Source: an uncultured Eubacteriales bacterium (GTDB lineage: Bacteria; Bacillota_A; Clostridia; Christensenellales; Aristaeellaceae). Taken from it: 6,493 nucleotides of DNA. Below the pieces are notes generated by a model that was not told where the DNA came from, searched no databases, and saw only the letters and a program-made list of their open reading frames with translations. Of this stretch, positions 1-6,493 are shown piece after piece. Both the position numbers and the translations under genes were made by a program. The stretch covers positions 1-6,493 of the forward strand of contig ONXY01000212.1 in the NCBI GenBank assembly GCA_900321945.1, given 5' to 3'. How positions within the stretch are numbered: the first letter of the stretch is position 1; each line of letters starts with the position of its first letter.

Positions 1-378
1 AGGGGAATGCTGGCGCTTGTCGGCGTCTCCTCGGAGGACGGACCCGCGGATCTGAAATACATCGCGGAAAAGGTCATGAATCTCCGGATCTACGACGATG
101 AAAACGGCGTCATGAACCGCTCCATCCTGGACGCCGGAGGCGCCATCCTGGCGGTGAGCCAGTTTACCCTCTACGGCGACGCGCGGGGCGGCCGCCGTCC
201 CAGCTACTTCCGGGCCGCGAAGCCTGAGAAGGCCAATGAAATGTACGAGGAGCTGATCGCCTTCTGGCGGTCCGCCGGCATTCAGGTGGAGACCGGCCGG
301 TTCCGCGCGGAGATGCAGGTGTCTCTCGTGAACGACGGACCGGTTACGATCCTGCTGGATTCCGAAAAAGCGTTCTGA
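1..378 (+). CDS. dtd: D-aminoacyl-tRNA deacylase, 5'-truncated by the window edge
   Basis: The encoded enzyme hydrolyses D-amino acids (and glycine mischarged on tRNA-Ala) from tRNA in the cytoplasm, keeping D-residues out of translation. The reading frame is open from base 1 (Arg-Gly before the first Met), and alignment from memory to the roughly 145-residue family puts about 24 N-terminal residues outside the window. The ATG at position 7 is therefore an internal Met, not the start. Of 125 visible residues, the family signatures are SQFTLY at 53-58, the GRRPS segment at 64-68, TGRF at 98-101 and the C-terminal NDGPVT at 111-116. GPVT carries the Gly-cisPro pair that, with the SQFTLY loop, forms the chiral-proofreading site across the dimer interface. 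All key residues are intact and the gene ends normally with TGA. It faces the minus-strand operon tail to tail. Identification is secure; nothing links it functionally to the sensor genes. Confidence 0.96.
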   Translation, partial: RGMLALVGVSSEDGPADLKYIAEKVMNLRIYDDENGVMNRSILDAGGAILAVSQFTLYGDARGGRRPSYFRAAKPEKANEMYEELIAFWRSAGIQVETGRFRAEMQVSLVNDGPVTILLDSEKAF

Positions 379-405
379 CGGCGGGACCCGGCGGCCGGTC
401 CAACC

Positions 406-426
406 GGGACGGGAAGCGCCTGTCCC
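406..426 (+). other. Small hairpin downstream of dtd
   Basis: An 8-bp stem (GGGACGGG at 406-413 with CCTGTCCC at 419-426, one G-U pair in the plus-strand RNA) encloses the loop AAGCG. No T-run follows, so it is not a classical terminator by itself. It could add 3'-end stability to the dtd transcript or be a chance product of the GC-rich spacer. No gene is visible in the 116-nt spacer 379-494. Confidence 0.3.
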
Positions 427-442
427 AAGCCCGGAAAACAGA

Positions 443-480
443 ACAGGAAACGACCCGGCAGCGGCCGGGTCGTTTCCTGT
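443..480. terminator. Bidirectional Rho-independent terminator between convergent genes
   Basis: A perfect 17-bp inverted repeat (arms 443-459 and 464-480, loop AGCG at 460-463) lies in the spacer between the dtd stop and the operon's last stop. The core of the stem is GC-rich (CGACCCGGC with GCCGGGTCG). Its outer part is A-rich on the 5' arm and T-rich on the 3' arm, so transcripts from either strand end in a GC stem followed by U-rich sequence: TTTCCTGTCTT rightward, and TTTCCTGTTCTGTTTT leftward. The leftward U-tract is the better one. Position, symmetry and convergent flanks all favour a shared terminator serving dtd and the binding-protein operon. Confidence 0.85.
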
Positions 481-494
481 CTTCGGGGGCCGCG

Positions 495-1688
495 TCAGTT
501 TTCCACGACGACGCAGTCCTGCAGAATATAACCGAAGGAAGGTCTGGAGGAGTACTGGTTTTCCGTGTATCCGCCGTTCAGGTCGATGACGTCCGACGGA
601 TTCTGGGGATTCACGCCGGTGTAGTTTCCGCTGAATACCTTCAGCCGGCCCTTCTTCAGGCTGTCAACCGCTTTCGCGATCTTATCCTCCGTGCCTTCCG
701 CCGCGATGAACCGGTTGAGCTCCAGAAGCTCGACCCAGCCGTTCTCGAAGCCCGCGCTGAGGTCGCGGCCGTGGGCGTGGGCGGACACGGCGCTCTCGAT
801 CGTCTGCCCGTTCAGCACGGCGCCCACCGCCTCGAGAATATACGGGGCCCAGTTGGTCCGGATGCTGACCAGGGCGCTGGAAGGAGCCACGTCCATCATG
901 CTCTGATGATATCCCACGTGGAAAACGGTGCATCCGGCGGAGGCCGCCTCCTCGCAGACCACGGCTGGAGCCGCGGTGTTCACGTGCTGCGCGATGATCA
1001 CGCAGCCCTCCTCAATCAGCTGCCGGGTCTGCGCCTTTTCCTCGTTGAAATTGCTCCAGCTGCCGGTGTACCGGACCCGCATGACCGCTTCCGGCGCGAC
1101 GCTCCGGACGCCCAGGAGGAAGGCGGTGAAGCCGGATATGACCTCCGTGCTGGAGTTGGCGGCCACGTATCCCACCAGAGCCTCCCCGGACCGCAGCGTT
1201 CCGCTGTCGATCAGCTGACGGAGCTTCATGCCCGCCGCGATGCCGCTGACGTAGCGCGCCTGCCAGATTTCCCCGTTGAAGGTATGGTAGTTCTCGGGCG
1301 TCCCCTCGATGCCGATATCCGGCATGGAGATCTGGCAGAACTCGACCCCGGGGTTTTCCCGGGCCATTGTGACCGGGATATCCGTATCCATGTTGATGAA
1401 GACGATCCGGCATCCCTCCCGGATCAGCTCCTGGATCGGGACCTCGGAATCCCGGCTCAGCACGTTGCTCCGGGTAAGAATCTCAATCCGCCCGCCGTAT
1501 TTCTCCTCCAGATCGTGCCGCGCCTGCAGGAAATTGGCCGTGTAGGGGGTGCTTTCGTCCTCGGAGCAGACGAAGCCGACGCGGAGGACGCGGCTGTCGG
1601 GGGAAGAGACGAAGTACCCGGTATGCAGGGACGCCGCGAGCAGCACGGCCGCGCAGACGATCACCGTCAGGATCCACTGCTTCTTCAT
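495..1688 (-). CDS. BMP-family (PnrA/Med-like) extracytoplasmic substrate-binding protein
   Basis: This is a 397-residue member of the BMP family, a periplasmic-binding-protein fold whose characterised members (such as PnrA/TmpC) bind purine nucleosides for ABC importers. Family landmarks include the start of the first lobe at RVGFV (36-40), the hinge-region stretch from YHTFNGE to AGMKL (134-155), GYVAA (173-177), GSWSNFNEEKAQ (209-220), GCVIIAQHVN (228-237) and TNWAPYI (278-284). The late motif GYHQSMMDVAP (259-269) and TNWAPY resemble the Med/adenine-type subgroup more than classical PnrA. The N-terminus has a hydrophobic helix (about residues 5-20) but no good lipobox; Cys12 is preceded by Val. 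It may be an uncleaved membrane anchor. The start ATG overlaps the stop of the sensor gene by 4 nt and has AGGGAG 7 nt upstream. It is the last gene before the terminator. No ABC permease or ATPase gene follows, so a sensory rather than transport role is plausible, but the ligand is unknown. Confidence 0.9.
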   Translation of the reverse strand: MKKQWILTVIVCAAVLLAASLHTGYFVSSPDSRVLRVGFVCSEDESTPYTANFLQARHDLEEKYGGRIEILTRSNVLSRDSEVPIQELIREGCRIVFINMDTDIPVTMARENPGVEFCQISMPDIGIEGTPENYHTFNGEIWQARYVSGIAAGMKLRQLIDSGTLRSGEALVGYVAANSSTEVISGFTAFLLGVRSVAPEAVMRVRYTGSWSNFNEEKAQTRQLIEEGCVIIAQHVNTAAPAVVCEEAASAGCTVFHVGYHQSMMDVAPSSALVSIRTNWAPYILEAVGAVLNGQTIESAVSAHAHGRDLSAGFENGWVELLELNRFIAAEGTEDKIAKAVDSLKKGRLKVFSGNYTGVNPQNPSDVIDLNGGYTENQYSSRPSFGYILQDCVVVEN

Positions 1689-4600
1689 GCTTTGTCTCCC
1701 TTCTCCAGCCCGGCGCGGTCAGCGGTTCCGTCCGCGGGGACGGGCTCTTTTTTCTCCTGCCCGTCCGCGGCCGCTCCGGCGGCTTTCGCGTCTTCGGCTT
1801 CCTTCTTTTCCTGCTTTTCCGCTTCCGCCGCTTTTTCCGCCTGCTCGGTTTCCTTTCTGGAAACGTGATATATTTTGTTGAGGTCGATGGTTCCATCCCG
1901 GATGAGCCGCAGAAGGATGTCCACGAACTGCGGATCGAACTGCGTGCCCCGGCCCTTCTCCAGCTCGCTCAGCACGTAGCTGAAGTCCATCTGCTTCCGG
2001 TAGACCCGGTTCGCCGTCATGGCGTCGAAGGCGTCCGCGACGCCGATGATCCTGGCATACAGCGGAATATCCTCGCCCTTCAGCCCCTTCGGATAGCCGC
2101 GGCCGTCGTAGCGCTCGTGATGGTATTCCGCGCCCTCGATCACGTTGTCCAGCAGCGTGAAGCCGTTGAGGATCTCCGCGCCGCGGACGGTGTGGGATTT
2201 CATGACTGCGTATTCCTCGTCCGTCAGGCGGGAGTTCTTGTTCAGAATGGCGTCCGGAATGGAGATCTTGCCGATGTCGTGCATCTGCGCGGTCCATTCG
2301 ATATCCCGGCACTGCTTGTCGTCCAGCCCGTAGGCCCGGGCGATCTGCTTGGAGTAGATGGCCACGCGCTTGCTGTGCTCGCTGGTCCGCTCGTCCTTGG
2401 CGTCCACGGTCCGGGCGATGGCGATAACCGTCTGCTTGCCCATCTCGACCTGCCGCTCGGCCAGCGCCAGCTGCTCCTCCATCTTTCTCTCGTGACGCTT
2501 GACGAGGAGCCAGGTGAGCCAGAAGACGGTGAACATGGGAACGAAGAGAATATAGACGATGAACCAGCTGTTGTCGTACATCGCCTTTTCCTTCGTGAAG
2601 GCGTAGGCGCGCTCGGCGAGGATGCTGCTCCGGCTGTTGTCGAAAACCGCCAGGCGGAACGTGAAATCCCCCGTCGGGAGATTGGTGTACACGATGGAGT
2701 TCAGCGAGTTCTGGGGCACGATGGTCCAGTCCGTGTCAAAGCCTTCGAGCATATAGCCCACGTACGGGTCCTGAATCGTGTAGTTGATTACCTCGGGCAG
2801 GATTTCCAGCCGGCTGCTTCCCCTGGGAATTCTGCCGGTCCGGTTCTTTTCCAGCCCGTGAAGCTCACCGTCCACACGGAAGCCGGTCACGTTCATGCGG
2901 AACAGCCTTACGCCCGAGGAAAGGGAACCCGTATTGAGAACGAAAACGCCGGTGTCGCAGGGCAGGTACAGTTCGCCGGTCTCCGCGTCGTACCAGGTCC
3001 AGGCGTTCGCCGTCAGGCTTCCGTTCAGCCCGCGGCGCGTATCCAGCAGGTCGTAGGAGAGATCGTCCCGGCCGCTGAGCAGTTCCGTCCGGTTGACGGT
3101 GTAGATGCCGGCGCTAGAGAGAACGAAGAGGGTTTCCGCGTCCTGAACCCAGACGTCGTAGTTGTTGTAGTAGGGGAAATTGTCCAGCCTGCGGACGGTC
3201 TCGTACGCGCTGATGTAGCAGAGGCCGTTGCTCGTGACCACGAAAACGCCGCCGGTGGTGCTGTCCGGAACGGTCCGGAGGATCACCTCGCTGCTCAGAC
3301 CGTTCGCGCGCGTCAGCGTCCGGACCACCTTTCCGTCCTGGATCACGGCGATGCCGTTTCCGTCCGTGCCGGCCAGAATTTTACCGTCCTCCAGCTCGGT
3401 CAGGGTCAGAACCATGCTGCTGAGGTTTCCCTCCGTCAGGCCGATGGTATGCTCCACCCGGTGGTCCCGGATAAAGCTCAGGCCCGTGTCGCCGGCGGCC
3501 AGGACGGTTCCGTCCCGCAGCTGCTTCACCACGCGGGCCCGGTTTCCGAACGCGCCGCTTTCCCGGTCGTACAGGTATTCCGTTCCGTCCGGGGCCAGCT
3601 CCACCAGCCCGCCGCCGTAGGTGCAGATCCACAGGTGGTTCTCACTGTCCACGATCATGCAGCGGATCCGTATGCCGGAAAAGCGGTCCGTGACCGCGTC
3701 CGTCACCCGCTTTTTGCCGTCCCGGTCCACCGCGTCCATGCCCTTGTCCGTGCCGAAATACCAGGTTCCGTTCCACTGCACGACGGTGTTGACCACCCGG
3801 CTGGTCAGGCCGGCGGTGCTGTACACGTCCCGGAAATCCGAAGGCGCGAGCCGCAGCAGCCCCAGCCGGGAGGAAGTGAACCACAGGTTGCCCTGATAGT
3901 CCACAAGCATATTGTCGATGGAATTGTTGAAGTTGTTGGTGTTGACCCGCTCATAGGCGCCGGCGGCGGAGAAATACGCGATGCCGTTGTCCGCGCAGAC
4001 GAACATGTCCCCGTTCTCCATGAAGCGCAGGCTCTTGATGCTCTGCAGCCCCGGGCAGTTCAGGACGTCCAGCAGCTCGAAGGCCCCCCGGGAGACCCGA
4101 AAGCGGTAGATCTCGCTGCCCGAGGTGGCCGCCAGCAGCGTGCCGTCCGCTCCGAAGCAGCAGCTTTTGAAAACCGACTGGCTGCCGGGCAGCTTCCGGG
4201 AGGAAACGATCTGCCCCTGCCGCAGCAGGAAGAGCGTGCCCTCGTTGGTGACCGCCGCCACGTTTCCGGCGTCGTCCGCGGCGAGATGATCCGCGTAGCC
4301 GATCTCCGAAACGATATTCACGTGTTTCAGCCCGCAGTTCAGCGTCAGGATCTGCATGCTGCCCGTGGTGCCGATGTAGTAGTATCCGTCGGAGCTCTTG
4401 ATGATGGACTTGACGGAGCTGGAGGGCAGCCCGTCGTCCTGGCTGATGACGTTGGCCACCTTTTCGTTGATCAGGATGGAAACGCCGTTGTCGTTGGTGC
4501 CGACCCACAGCCTCCCCTCCTCGTCCAGATAGAGGCAGTTGACGTTCCGGATGGAATCGTAGCCATCCATCCACCTGAATTCACGGCCGTTGTAGCGGTA

Positions 4601-5431
4601 CAGCCCGGCGTAGGTTCCGATCCACATGACGCCGTCCCCGGTCATGGCGATATCGTTCGCCTCGCCGCAGGGCAGGCCGTTGGAAGTCGAGTATACGGTC
4701 TGGACGTAGTCGCTGTAGCCGGAGCCCCGGGAGACGGGCTGGTCCTCCGCGCGGGCCGGAACGGACGTCCCGGCCGCGGAGGCGAGGCAGCATCCCGCCG
4801 CGACGATCAGCGCCATGGCGCGCGCCGGAGCCGGCGCGCCGTCCTCCCCGCCTTCCCCGTCCTTTCCGCCCCGGCCGAAGCGTTTCCGCAGCGCGGCCAG
4901 GAGCCGGCAGGACAGGAAGACTGCCAGCAGGATGACCAGCTTGTCCAGCAGCTCCATATACAGTTCCCCGATGAGCAGGCCGCCCCACCGGGGGATCCCC
5001 AGCTCGCCGAGGAAGCCGATCACCGCGTCGCCCCAGTTGCTTCCGGTGCTTCCGCCGTTCAGCGTCAGATTGACGGGATAGGCGGCGACGGCTACGGCGC
5101 CGGCCAGCACGGCGCACGCGGTCAGCGTGCCGAGCAGCGTGTCCAGCGCTTTTTTCCGGGCCGCGAAACCGGTGATCAGACCGATCAGGACGCTGATGAG
5201 AGCATAATACCAGGGGGTTCCATACAGAAGGTACGCGAGCAGATTGGAAGTCGCCCCGACAACGGCGCCGCAGAAGGGCCCGTAAAGATACGCGCAGAAT
5301 ACCGTGCCCGCCGAGTCAAGCCAGATGGGCCAGTTCATTCTGGAAACGAACTGGTCCCCGGCCCAGTTCGCCCCCAGGAACAGCAGTATCTGCAGGACAA
5401 AAGCGGGAGCGGTGAAGCGCCTGCTTTTCAT
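1685..5431 (-). CDS. Multidomain membrane sensor: S-component-like domain, double regulator propeller, Y_Y_Y, HD-GYP c-di-GMP phosphodiesterase
   Basis: This 1248-residue protein should sense an extracytoplasmic signal and hydrolyse cyclic di-GMP inside the cell. Residues 1-182 form about six membrane helices resembling ECF-transporter S components (WLDSAGTVF at 37-45, YGPFCGAVVGA at 50-60). A Gly/Asp/Glu linker (187-200) and a signal-peptide-like helix ending in ARA|ED (206-230) follow. Residues 249-835 contain about 14 Reg_prop blades of the type GxLWxGTxxGG (for example 306-316 and 598-608), and 880-948 form a Y_Y_Y domain (GYMLEGFDTDW at 892-902). A membrane helix spans 955-977, with a short coiled coil after it. 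The HD-GYP domain (about 1005-1180) has HDIGK at 1051-1055, His1080, HHERYDGRGYP at 1104-1114 and VADAFDAM at 1131-1138, so its catalytic motifs look intact. The tail, 1191-1248, is rich in Ala, Glu and Lys. Positive charges after helix 6 (RKRFGRGGK) and after the last helix (KRHERK) place the propellers outside and HD-GYP inside. It overlaps both neighbours by 4 nt. Domain calls are firm except the S-component resemblance, and the ligand is unknown. Confidence 0.93.
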   Translation of the reverse strand: MKSRRFTAPAFVLQILLFLGANWAGDQFVSRMNWPIWLDSAGTVFCAYLYGPFCGAVVGATSNLLAYLLYGTPWYYALISVLIGLITGFAARKKALDTLLGTLTACAVLAGAVAVAAYPVNLTLNGGSTGSNWGDAVIGFLGELGIPRWGGLLIGELYMELLDKLVILLAVFLSCRLLAALRKRFGRGGKDGEGGEDGAPAPARAMALIVAAGCCLASAAGTSVPARAEDQPVSRGSGYSDYVQTVYSTSNGLPCGEANDIAMTGDGVMWIGTYAGLYRYNGREFRWMDGYDSIRNVNCLYLDEEGRLWVGTNDNGVSILINEKVANVISQDDGLPSSSVKSIIKSSDGYYYIGTTGSMQILTLNCGLKHVNIVSEIGYADHLAADDAGNVAAVTNEGTLFLLRQGQIVSSRKLPGSQSVFKSCCFGADGTLLAATSGSEIYRFRVSRGAFELLDVLNCPGLQSIKSLRFMENGDMFVCADNGIAYFSAAGAYERVNTNNFNNSIDNMLVDYQGNLWFTSSRLGLLRLAPSDFRDVYSTAGLTSRVVNTVVQWNGTWYFGTDKGMDAVDRDGKKRVTDAVTDRFSGIRIRCMIVDSENHLWICTYGGGLVELAPDGTEYLYDRESGAFGNRARVVKQLRDGTVLAAGDTGLSFIRDHRVEHTIGLTEGNLSSMVLTLTELEDGKILAGTDGNGIAVIQDGKVVRTLTRANGLSSEVILRTVPDSTTGGVFVVTSNGLCYISAYETVRRLDNFPYYNNYDVWVQDAETLFVLSSAGIYTVNRTELLSGRDDLSYDLLDTRRGLNGSLTANAWTWYDAETGELYLPCDTGVFVLNTGSLSSGVRLFRMNVTGFRVDGELHGLEKNRTGRIPRGSSRLEILPEVINYTIQDPYVGYMLEGFDTDWTIVPQNSLNSIVYTNLPTGDFTFRLAVFDNSRSSILAERAYAFTKEKAMYDNSWFIVYILFVPMFTVFWLTWLLVKRHERKMEEQLALAERQVEMGKQTVIAIARTVDAKDERTSEHSKRVAIYSKQIARAYGLDDKQCRDIEWTAQMHDIGKISIPDAILNKNSRLTDEEYAVMKSHTVRGAEILNGFTLLDNVIEGAEYHHERYDGRGYPKGLKGEDIPLYARIIGVADAFDAMTANRVYRKQMDFSYVLSELEKGRGTQFDPQFVDILLRLIRDGTIDLNKIYHVSRKETEQAEKAAEAEKQEKKEAEDAKAAGAAADGQEKKEPVPADGTADRAGLEKGDKA
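1696..1701 (-). promoter_or_regulatory. Ribosome binding site of the BMP-family gene
   Basis: AGGGAG (minus strand) lies 7 nt before the ATG at 1688, inside the last codons of the sensor gene. Together with the ATGA stop/start overlap (1685-1688) it fixes this start and points to translational coupling. Confidence 0.75.
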
Positions 5432-6396
5432 TCCGGTCTCCTCCCTTCAGCGCCGCTTCCGCCGGCATCCGGCAGCCCGAGTTCCTCAACCCGGTTCCGG
5501 GCCTCCTCCAGCCACGCTCCGTAGGTTCCTCTCCGGAGCGCCTCGTCGATCACGCCGTTCACAAAGGCGGCCAGCTGCGTCTCGCCCTTCCGGGCCGCGA
5601 CCCTGTATCCGAGAAACTGCTGATCCGGAGCGATTGAAACGTTCCCGGCCAGCGTCAGCCCGCAGTCCGGATTGTTCATGAAGAAGGTTTCCGCCGTCGG
5701 GATCCGGACGAACCCCGCGTCCGCGGTTTTCTGCTGAACGGCCTCAAAGACGGCCTGGGCGGAAGGAAGGCGGCGGAACTCCAGATATCCGGTCACGCGC
5801 AGGGCGCCGACGGCCTCGGGAACGGAACTGCTCTGGGCGGCGAGCACCTTATCCGACAGATCGCTGAGGGAGGTGATCCGCTCCCGGTCCTCCTCCCGGA
5901 TGAGCAGACCGGTTTTCTCCGTCTCCTCCGGGAAGAAGTATCCCTTGGACAGGGTATAGGACAGCGCCCGGGCCGGCGTGTAGGAGACCGCGGAGACCGC
6001 CAGGTCGCACCGGCCCTCCGTCAGCGAAGGCAGAATCAGCGCGGGTTCCATGGGCAGAACCACCAGCTCCACGCCCATCCAGTCCGCGATCTGCCGGGCC
6101 AGCCGGATGTCCGCTCCGGAATATCCGCCGCTGACGCCGCCGTCCGGATCCGGAAACACGAAAGGCGCGGCGGACGCGTCGACCGCGACCCGCAGGACGC
6201 CGTCCCGCTCAATCCGCCCAAGCGCGCCGGAAGCGTCCGCCGGGATACCGCGGTGGACGTTCATGGAGGCGTCCACGAAATTCCATTCGTTTTCCACATA
6301 GCCGGCCGTCTGGTCCGCCGCGGCGCGTACGAAACTGACGACGGACACGGCGGCCAGGAGGAGGCACAGCGCGGTTCTGAAAGAATGTCTGTTCAT
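5428..6396 (-). CDS. Family-3 solute-binding protein (amino-acid-type), possible sensor partner
   Basis: This is a 322-residue extracytoplasmic binding protein of the SBP_bac_3 family, whose members usually deliver polar amino acids to ABC importers and sometimes serve as sensor input domains. A Sec signal peptide (about 1-27, hydrophobic core ALCLLLAAVSVVSF, AAA/D-type cleavage site) is present, but there is no lipobox. The binding domain (about 61-304) begins GVLRVAV (66-72) and has GYSGADIRLA (91-100), LPSLTEGRCDLAVSAVSYT (122-140) and PARALSYTLSKGYF (141-154). Arg143 corresponds to the family arginine that holds the ligand alpha-carboxylate. In the second lobe the usual DAxxxD reads DAGFVR (226-231), so the amino-group-binding Asp is replaced by Arg231. 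ATG 6396 is the only start: no ATG, GTG or TTG lies between it and an in-frame stop upstream, and AGGGGG precedes it. Its TGA overlaps the sensor ATG by 4 nt. Family assignment is firm; an ordinary amino-acid ligand is doubtful. Confidence 0.9.
   Translation of the reverse strand: MNRHSFRTALCLLLAAVSVVSFVRAAADQTAGYVENEWNFVDASMNVHRGIPADASGALGRIERDGVLRVAVDASAAPFVFPDPDGGVSGGYSGADIRLARQIADWMGVELVVLPMEPALILPSLTEGRCDLAVSAVSYTPARALSYTLSKGYFFPEETEKTGLLIREEDRERITSLSDLSDKVLAAQSSSVPEAVGALRVTGYLEFRRLPSAQAVFEAVQQKTADAGFVRIPTAETFFMNNPDCGLTLAGNVSIAPDQQFLGYRVAARKGETQLAAFVNGVIDEALRRGTYGAWLEEARNRVEELGLPDAGGSGAEGRRPE
5438..5448 (-). promoter_or_regulatory. Ribosome binding site of the sensor gene
   Basis: GAAGGGAGGAG (minus strand), close to the full anti-Shine-Dalgarno complement, ends 6 nt before the ATG at 5431. 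It lies within the end of the binding-protein gene and supports this start and coupled translation. Confidence 0.8.
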
Positions 6397-6401
6397 CGGT
6401 T

Positions 6402-6410
6402 CTTCCCCCT
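6402..6410 (-). promoter_or_regulatory. Ribosome binding site of the family-3 binding-protein gene
   Basis: AGGGGGAAG on the minus strand lies 5 nt before the ATG at 6396. It selects this start, which is also the only candidate start in the frame. Confidence 0.65.
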
Positions 6411-6431
6411 GATCGGATTCCGGGCTTTCCG

Positions 6432-6493
6432 TTATTCTTTCCGTTCCTGATGAAGGGAATCATACATTCCGTTATAGCTTTCAGCCAGCTGCC
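6432..6493 (-). CDS. Possible 3' end of an upstream operon gene (partial)
   Basis: On the minus strand one frame is open from the window edge to a TAA at 6434-6432, giving 19 codons that read QLAESYNGMYDSLHQERKE. The composition (charged, helical, ending KE) resembles an ordinary bacterial C-terminus. The stop would lie only 35 nt before the binding-protein start, with that gene's ribosome binding site between them, as expected inside an operon. Against this, third codon positions are much less GC-rich than in the neighbouring genes, and 19 codons can stay open by chance. The same stretch has promoter-like features. No family can be named. Confidence 0.35.
   Translation of the reverse strand, partial: QLAESYNGMYDSLHQERKE
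6459..6476 (-). promoter_or_regulatory. Weak candidate -10 elements upstream of the operon
   Basis: If no gene ends here, this AT-richer stretch would be the operon leader. On the minus strand TATAAC (6476-6471) and TATGAT (6464-6459) each match five of six -10 consensus bases. The -35 position for TATGAT holds only TGGCTG at 17-nt spacing, and that for TATAAC is beyond the window. A short inverted repeat (GGAAT, 5-nt spacer, ATTCC; 6456-6470) overlaps the second element. This is a tentative call. Confidence 0.2.

Follow-up and report, generated by a model that had tools for sequence, protein, structure and literature searches.

Two solute-binding proteins kept together with a membrane HD-GYP protein in ruminant gut bacteria: a candidate sensing cassette

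The DNA analyzed here, which we refer to as the window, is the full stretch of contig ONXY01000212.1 from position 1 to 6,493. It carries a cassette of three genes, A (6396-5428), B (5431-1685) and C (1688-495), arranged head to tail on the minus strand. A and C encode solute-binding proteins (SBPs) of two families, SBP_bac_3 and BMP, and between them lies B, which encodes a large membrane protein with an HD-GYP output domain. These coordinates and strands, and the 4-nt ATGA overlaps of the window (A/B at 5428-5431, B/C at 1685-1688), agree with an earlier interpretation made from the letters of the window without database searches (the sequence-only reading), which proposed that the two SBPs and B form an unusual multi-input switch for cyclic di-GMP (c-di-GMP). 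The features of the window that bear on this proposal are as follows (TM, transmembrane segment; ECF, energy-coupling factor).

5428..6396, minus strand: gene A, secreted SBP_bac_3 protein of 322 aa (from Pfam, AXA motif and PDB relatives)
1685..5431, minus strand: gene B, 1248 aa, with the order S-component-like membrane domain, TM7, two-component propeller, Y_Y_Y, TM8, HD-GYP
4865..5431, minus strand: ECF S-component-like membrane domain of B, residues ~1-189
2597..4729, minus strand: Reg_prop propeller and Y_Y_Y ectodomain of B, residues ~235-945 (PDB relatives 4a2l, 3v9f, 3ott)
1877..2431, minus strand: HD-GYP domain of B, residues ~1001-1185 (PDB relatives 5z7c, 4mcw, 4r8z)
495..1688, minus strand: gene C, BMP/PnrA-type binding protein of 397 aa with an N-terminal hydrophobic segment (from Pfam and PDB relatives)
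442..481, minus strand: terminator-like hairpin 3' of C (from a terminator scan)
6434..6493, minus strand: 3' end of a fourth gene, the remainder of which is outside the window (from the translated frame)

One genome per species was scanned with an alignment of C, which gave 42 loci (designated by L numbers); as the scan required exact short peptide patterns, diverged relatives were missed. The A-B-C order, whose restriction to one strain would have refuted the sequence-only reading, is kept in 37 of these loci, and contig ends truncate four others (L019, L028, L031, L034). The second copy that one genome carries (L059) is likewise a complete A-B-C. According to the record titles, the 42 loci are nearly all from uncultured organisms or metagenome-assembled genomes, given as Clostridia, Clostridiales, Lachnospiraceae, Christensenellaceae, Blautia sp. 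or bacterium, and where a title names a source it is goat, sheep, roe deer or rumen. Among the proteins listed, Aristaeella lactis (family Aristaeellaceae) is the named species, with a C that is 72% identical. The 4-nt coupling at both junctions did not hold up as a general feature. Such an overlap is available for B-C in 30 of 41 loci but for A-B in only 2 of 37, where the gaps are usually about 10 to 140 nt from the first candidate start, and therefore the coupling emphasized by the sequence-only reading stands for B-C, whereas for A-B it is incidental.

We also sampled 200 genomes of one family (genomes are designated by G numbers). B with its S-component-like domain, the S-bearing form, occurs in 32 of them and one more has a fragment of B where its contig ends, and B copies may be undercounted since only the best three candidates were scored in most genomes. 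Cassette-type C was present in 31 genomes as 33 copies, a count from which G106 (E 5e-96, near importer paralogs) was excluded, and for all 33 a comparison of coordinates by eye places a same-strand B match no more than ~320 nt away. Two genomes, G186 and G221, have two such C-beside-B pairs each, and the two with B only are explained by contig ends, with the contig stopping at B in G164 and C being cut in G143. Cassette-type A, sought in 12 genomes, was at the cassette in all 12. In the wider samples cassette-type C was found in 11 of 396 genomes at the level of the order, all 11 of which are also in the family sample, and in 3 of 398 at the level of the phylum. The cassette is narrow in range and strictly kept where seen.

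The window contains no gene for a permease or an ATPase, as the sequence-only reading had said, and there is no space for one beyond A, B, C and a gene at 1-378, the Pfam scan having left out overlapping and antisense frames. For the 42 loci, frames of at least 80 aa were searched with the ATPases and BPD_transp_2 permeases of paralogous importers over 323,450 bases of downstream flank (up to 10 kb per locus) and 166,692 bases of upstream flank (at most ~5 kb from A). An ATP-binding cassette (ABC) ATPase is present in seven loci (L015, L032, L035, L036, L037, L038, L041), in four of which (L032, L035, L037, L038) it lies some 0.8 kb downstream in the opposite orientation; a BPD_transp_2 permease was found in the searched flanks of none of the 42, and a putative permease frame of the SBP_bac_3/amino-acid type in one (L015). 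Most relatives thus do not have a permease and an ATPase directly upstream of the cassette, the other finding that would have refuted the sequence-only reading. As a control, in seven of ten loci the BMP paralog of the same genomes adjoins an ATPase and two permeases of its own, two of the others being cut by contig ends and the last (L052) having none, and the loci of SBP_bac_3 paralogs have an ATPase nearby in eight of ten. It should be noted that the permease and ATPase seeds were taken from the control loci, so that the control matches are partly by construction, and that the SBP_bac_3-type permease seeds were TM-rich frames between SBP and ATPase, chosen by hydropathy and position and not by Pfam.

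The description of B as an HD-GYP protein with a large sensor stands in that Pfam finds Reg_prop repeats, Y_Y_Y and HD_5/HD, but it overlooked the N-terminal S-component-like domain, which is detected at residues 27-176. The sequence match (NF045596, 68.5 bits) is under its equivalog cut-off, and the membrane domain has an S-component fold by our fold test, Foldseek alone giving no match with E ≤ 0.001. The AXXXA motif of helix 1 is present in only one of 40 B sequences. TM7 and TM8 would flank the ectodomain in the topology of B. Thirteen positions of the HD-GYP domain were checked, and 12 of them (H1019, H1051, D1052, K1055, H1080, H1104, H1105, D1109, G1110, G1112, Y1113 and D1133) are invariant in all 40 B sequences, that of the window included, and the thirteenth (P1114, the P of GYP) is kept in 39; the His and Asp residues among them are those of the metal site. 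By Pfam the output of B is HD-GYP only, with no GGDEF-EAL and no kinase or receiver domain. The PDB entries closest to this domain are themselves HD-GYP enzymes. Its substrate is likely c-di-GMP, although this is not certain because the best PDB match of the domain, 5z7c, is by name a 3'3'-cGAMP phosphodiesterase. The sequence-only reading had raised the question of GGDEF proteins, and all ten genomes searched have them, with 12 to 32 GGDEF genes each, so that a source of c-di-GMP is present; a PilZ match was found in none of the ten (G185, G211, G151, G107 and six others). All ten also have an EcfT-family gene, which lies on a contig other than that of the cassette or no closer to it than ~120 kb.

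No A or C lies in the 12-15 kb of DNA retrieved around eight propeller/HD-GYP relatives that lack the S-component-like domain (L069-L076, mostly ~1000 aa). This was judged by tblastn, because greedy open reading frame picking had hidden A or C in L066-L068. Among the forms checked, A and C accompany the S-bearing form of B. The S-less proteins are a parallel receptor form in the same family, and G221 and G186 contain both forms. The same type of propeller ectodomain is also fused to a hybrid kinase (L077:4531-8166) or to a SpoIIE phosphatase (L079:5386-8625), and it has therefore been mixed with several outputs within the family.

Pfam assigns A to SBP_bac_3 (PF00497, 72.4 bits) and C to Bmp (PF02608, 81.7 bits), which bears out the two families named by the sequence-only reading. 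In A, a signal peptide is followed by an N-terminal extension of ~28 residues (33-60) and then by the SBP domain, with the best PDB relatives beginning at profile position ~56-60. The extension (YVENEWN.V...) has a mean conservation of 0.73, compared to 0.65 for residues 61-300 of the SBP domain, whereas nine of ten SBP_bac_3 paralogs pass by eye directly from the signal peptide to the SBP domain, and we regard it as a candidate docking element. The tenth paralog (L104:2288-5620), from a genome that has the cassette, is an open frame of 1111 aa containing an SBP_bac_3-like domain. With start codons picked by rule, an AXA cleavage motif lies within residues 15-42 in 31 of 38 A sequences and in nine of ten SBP_bac_3 paralogs. 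The same motif is found in 11 of 41 C sequences (that of the window being without it) and in seven of ten BMP paralogs, and because it is mostly absent from C, this protein is probably held in the membrane by its uncleaved N-terminal segment. No lipobox precedes the mature part in the paralog N-termini displayed. The PDB relatives of C are 3s99 and 6pi5. It is 31-33% identical to the importer BMP paralog of the same genomes over the aligned part, and its DESTPY..NF stretch is well conserved and resembles that of the importer paralogs. On the same contigs as two cassettes, about 14 and 26 kb away, are genes for ~640-aa proteins (L057:2735-4654 and L058:2784-4718) whose only Pfam match is a Bmp half-domain at residues ~285-450.

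The amino-acid pocket of A looks altered in the lineage of the window. Arg143 is retained in all 38 A sequences, and the acid position, which we take to hold the amino group of a bound amino acid, is Asp in 28 and Glu in one, Arg in the window and Asn, Ser, Leu or Met in the eight others. All nine non-acid cases are in loci where the fourth gene is directly upstream of A (9 of 13 including the window, and 0 of 25 elsewhere). A clean link between acid loss and the fourth gene was rejected, as these loci resemble one related subgroup and L005, L006, L007 and L015 retain Asp. The ratio of A to B distances is 1.91 in the fourth-gene subgroup and 1.26 in the other 25 loci (including L015, which also has the fourth gene), and faster change of A was also rejected as a clean effect, since the ratio is 1.65 in the eight closest loci of the 25. 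In the lineage of the window, A may now bind another ligand or none.

The fourth gene was overlooked by the sequence-only reading. The last 60 bases of the window (6493-6434, minus strand) read QLAESYNGMYDSLHQERKE followed by a stop, and this tail matches the 295-aa protein of L001 at 13 of 19 residues (E 0.32), so short a match that the assignment in the window is by position as much as by score. The gene immediately precedes A in the window and in 12 of the 42 loci (L001, L005-L008, L012-L017, L039), and in L002, L003, L004 and L009 it lies farther upstream, at about 3.7-3.9 kb. It is absent from the flanks examined in the 26 other loci, some of which are on short contigs; for three of these (L010, L011 and L040) the flank examined was ~13 kb upstream. 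In relatives the product has ~295 aa, two TM segments, a HAMP-like end (of seven copies scanned, five match HAMP weakly and under the cut-off) and no output domain. Its structural model (predicted local distance difference test score 83, predicted template modeling score 0.59) is all-helical with two long TM-spanning helices and a predicted four-helix bundle, and Foldseek lists NarQ and the LytS part of the XylFII-LytS complex, all with E > 0.001. The fourth protein is a predicted sensor, and its gene belongs to one subgroup of loci, the window among them. Just before the fourth gene in L005, about 1.3 kb upstream of A, is a gene for a 1143-aa PAS/HD-GYP/GGDEF protein (L005:652-4083).

At the other end of the cassette, what the sequence-only reading called a strong terminator is a terminator-like hairpin (481-442) with an 18-pair stem and a T tail that is modest. 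The window has 11 terminator-like sites on both strands compared to 4.5 expected from shuffles. The hairpin sits between C and a convergent gene for a D-Tyr-tRNA deacylase (1-378, plus strand, assigned by Pfam), the 5' end of which is cut by the window. A 1219-aa open frame antisense to B (1865-5524, plus strand) was judged an effect of G+C-rich codons and composition and not a gene.

Receptor stimulation by SBPs has been termed general and widespread (PMC9602780), and several known systems can be set beside the cassette. The cassette most likely works like the NspS-MbaA system of Vibrio cholerae but is built of unrelated parts and is not a member of that homologous system; MbaA presumably has neither the S-component domain nor the propeller. 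What the two share is an SBP gene beside the gene of a membrane c-di-GMP enzyme, and the cassette has no dedicated permease or ATPase in most loci. In V. cholerae the activity of the membrane c-di-GMP enzyme is set by a periplasmic SBP that binds a solute and is separate from the importer PotABCD1, with a GGDEF-EAL output in MbaA as opposed to the HD-GYP of B and with one SBP as opposed to two (PMC8967002). Since an SBP-controlled c-di-GMP enzyme is already known in NspS-MbaA (PMC8967002), the idea is less unusual than the sequence-only reading held.

The ectodomain of B is of the same family as that of the Reg_prop/Y_Y_Y hybrid sensor kinases known as HTCS (4a2l, 3v9f, 3ott), which differ in having a kinase/receiver output, and we know of no S-component domain or binding-protein genes among these propeller kinases. 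The ArtI protein of Salmonella belongs to a transporter. This arginine-binding SBP is needed for arginine sensing by STM1987, a membrane c-di-GMP enzyme that differs from B in its dCACHE_1 ectodomain and in the involvement of a single SBP (PMC8846402). Domains of the periplasmic binding protein (PBP) clan also feed c-di-GMP enzymes as fusions to GGDEF, EAL or HD-GYP proteins (SBP_bac_3 in RmcA), where they are within the enzyme chain, whereas A and C are separate proteins (PMC8846402). The S-component fold serves as a membrane receptor domain in the 5TMR proteins, which like B are without AXXXA, and neither HD-GYP nor a propeller is mentioned with them in the main text of the paper (PMC11109136). 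In the GlnH-GlnX-PknG system of Actinobacteria, an SBP_bac_3 protein is encoded with an outputless four-helix-bundle membrane protein, but GlnX has four TM segments and two tandem bundles, compared to the one predicted bundle and two long TM-spanning helices of the fourth protein, and the system as described has a kinase output with no BMP and no c-di-GMP enzyme (PMC9769921). The clostridial CuaD-CuaSR system of Ruminiclostridium likewise dedicates an SBP to an adjoining sensor, apart from the importer SBP, although the sensor is a two-component kinase and the solute is cellobiose (PMC10384115). Within the open-access titles and abstract openings listed, which leave most of the subscription literature outside and are no proof of absence, neither the gene trio nor the fusion of S-component, propeller and HD-GYP is described.

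Based on the gene order, the domains and catalytic residues, the lack of adjacent importer genes in most loci and the lack of the ECF-coupling motif, we put forward a hypothetical mechanism in which the cassette is a transporter-free extracytoplasmic sensing unit, an SBP-gated c-di-GMP phosphodiesterase in which A and C control B, and to which we assign a probability of about 0.6. We propose that B is a membrane c-di-GMP phosphodiesterase with an S-component-type membrane domain, the propeller and Y_Y_Y on the outside and HD-GYP on the inside. A, secreted and of the amino-acid type, and C, of the BMP type and probably membrane-held, would bind small molecules and contact the ectodomain of B, its S-component domain, or both. 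The open or closed state of A and C would then set the activity of HD-GYP such that c-di-GMP is lowered or released. That A and C dock on B, which ligands they take, in which direction the output shifts and that B is active are all part of what we infer. The sequence-only reading is confirmed in what it observed and supported in part in what it proposed; its multi-input switch needs revision in view of the third transporter-type module in B, the fourth gene in part of the family and the apparently altered pocket of A. A more speculative extension, which we hold to only tentatively, is that transporter parts make up a signal integrator in which three unrelated uptake-type modules, namely SBP_bac_3, the tethered BMP and the ECF S-component serving as the membrane domain of B, converge along with the propeller on one HD-GYP, so that amino-acid-like, nucleoside- or sugar-like and vitamin-like solutes might be read as a single c-di-GMP output without import.

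Several observations weigh against the proposed SBP-gated phosphodiesterase. The gene neighborhood could reflect co-regulation only. There are two cases of B-C without an adjacent A, namely L033 (in 2.7 kb upstream) and a second copy, L060 (in about 7.5 kb upstream), and A of the window carries Arg where 28 of 38 carry Asp at the position presumed to hold the amino group. Distances of A track those of C weakly (r 0.34, and 0.61 with the propeller), while the correlations among the parts of B and C are 0.74-0.84; by this measure A appears to be the least bound member of the cassette and C and B the more tightly linked pair. An orphan BMP is by itself no proof of sensing, because in L052 an importer-type BMP paralog stands without an ABC ATPase or permease in 17 kb. 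Finally, each of the ten genomes has an EcfT-family gene, which leaves a little weight on a transport role for the S-domain.

Specifically, that role would make the S-domain of B an ECF-coupled importer of a vitamin, working through a shared EcfT module with a regulatory enzyme attached. Such an arrangement would account for the S-component fold, but AXXXA, which is needed for the contact with EcfT (PMC11109136), is missing from all but one B sequence and the EcfT genes of the ten genomes are distant from the cassette, and we consider it very improbable. It is also unlikely, if less so, that A and C are ordinary importer subunits for a permease and ATPase encoded elsewhere, with B merely co-transcribed. 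Both are homologous to importer SBPs, and the same genomes do contain whole BMP-type importers as well as SBP_bac_3 genes adjoining ATPases; however, such importers mostly encode their own binding proteins alongside, C has diverged from the importer paralog and usually lacks AXA, the conserved extension of A is not seen in the paralog N-termini displayed, and the cassette is tightly associated with a single receptor architecture.

A further reading, about as unlikely as ordinary importer subunits, is that B senses directly through the S-component pocket, the propeller or both, and that A and C adjust the free ligand or act separately. Domains of the S-component fold bind ligands alone and serve as receptor domains of 5TMR kinases (PMC11109136), the solved propeller relatives are sensor kinases, and the S-less relatives occur without neighboring A or C. 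The same comparison argues the other way, as A and C accompany B where it carries the S-domain but are missing near the eight S-less forms checked, a restriction that suggests a functional tie. Where the fourth gene is present, A might instead dock on the four-helix-bundle protein, as GlnH may on GlnX, leaving B to answer to C alone. The position of the gene directly upstream of A (or 3.7-3.9 kb upstream in four loci), the predicted helical protein with its HAMP-like end and no output, the NarQ and LytS entries from Foldseek and the joint encoding of GlnH and GlnX, the contact between which is itself putative (PMC9769921), are consistent with this. Nevertheless, the helical-bundle matches are weak evidence, 26 loci are without the gene in the flanks examined, and where the gene immediately precedes A the acid is lost in 9 of 13 cases, which speaks against an amino acid as the conserved ligand, and we regard this arrangement as doubtful, more so than direct sensing by B.

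The essence of our proposal is that the trio is kept together in many ruminant gut bacteria and that, judging from sequence, A and C look like sensors of B and not like importer parts. To our knowledge, the ligands of c-di-GMP receptors are rarely known, and a conserved cassette with its own binding proteins offers soluble, purifiable handles for finding the signal. If the proposed mechanism is true, two SBPs of unrelated families and an S-component-type domain would serve one c-di-GMP enzyme, which would extend the 'transceptor' idea, and the cassette would provide an entry to signaling in the little-studied Clostridia of the ruminant gut.

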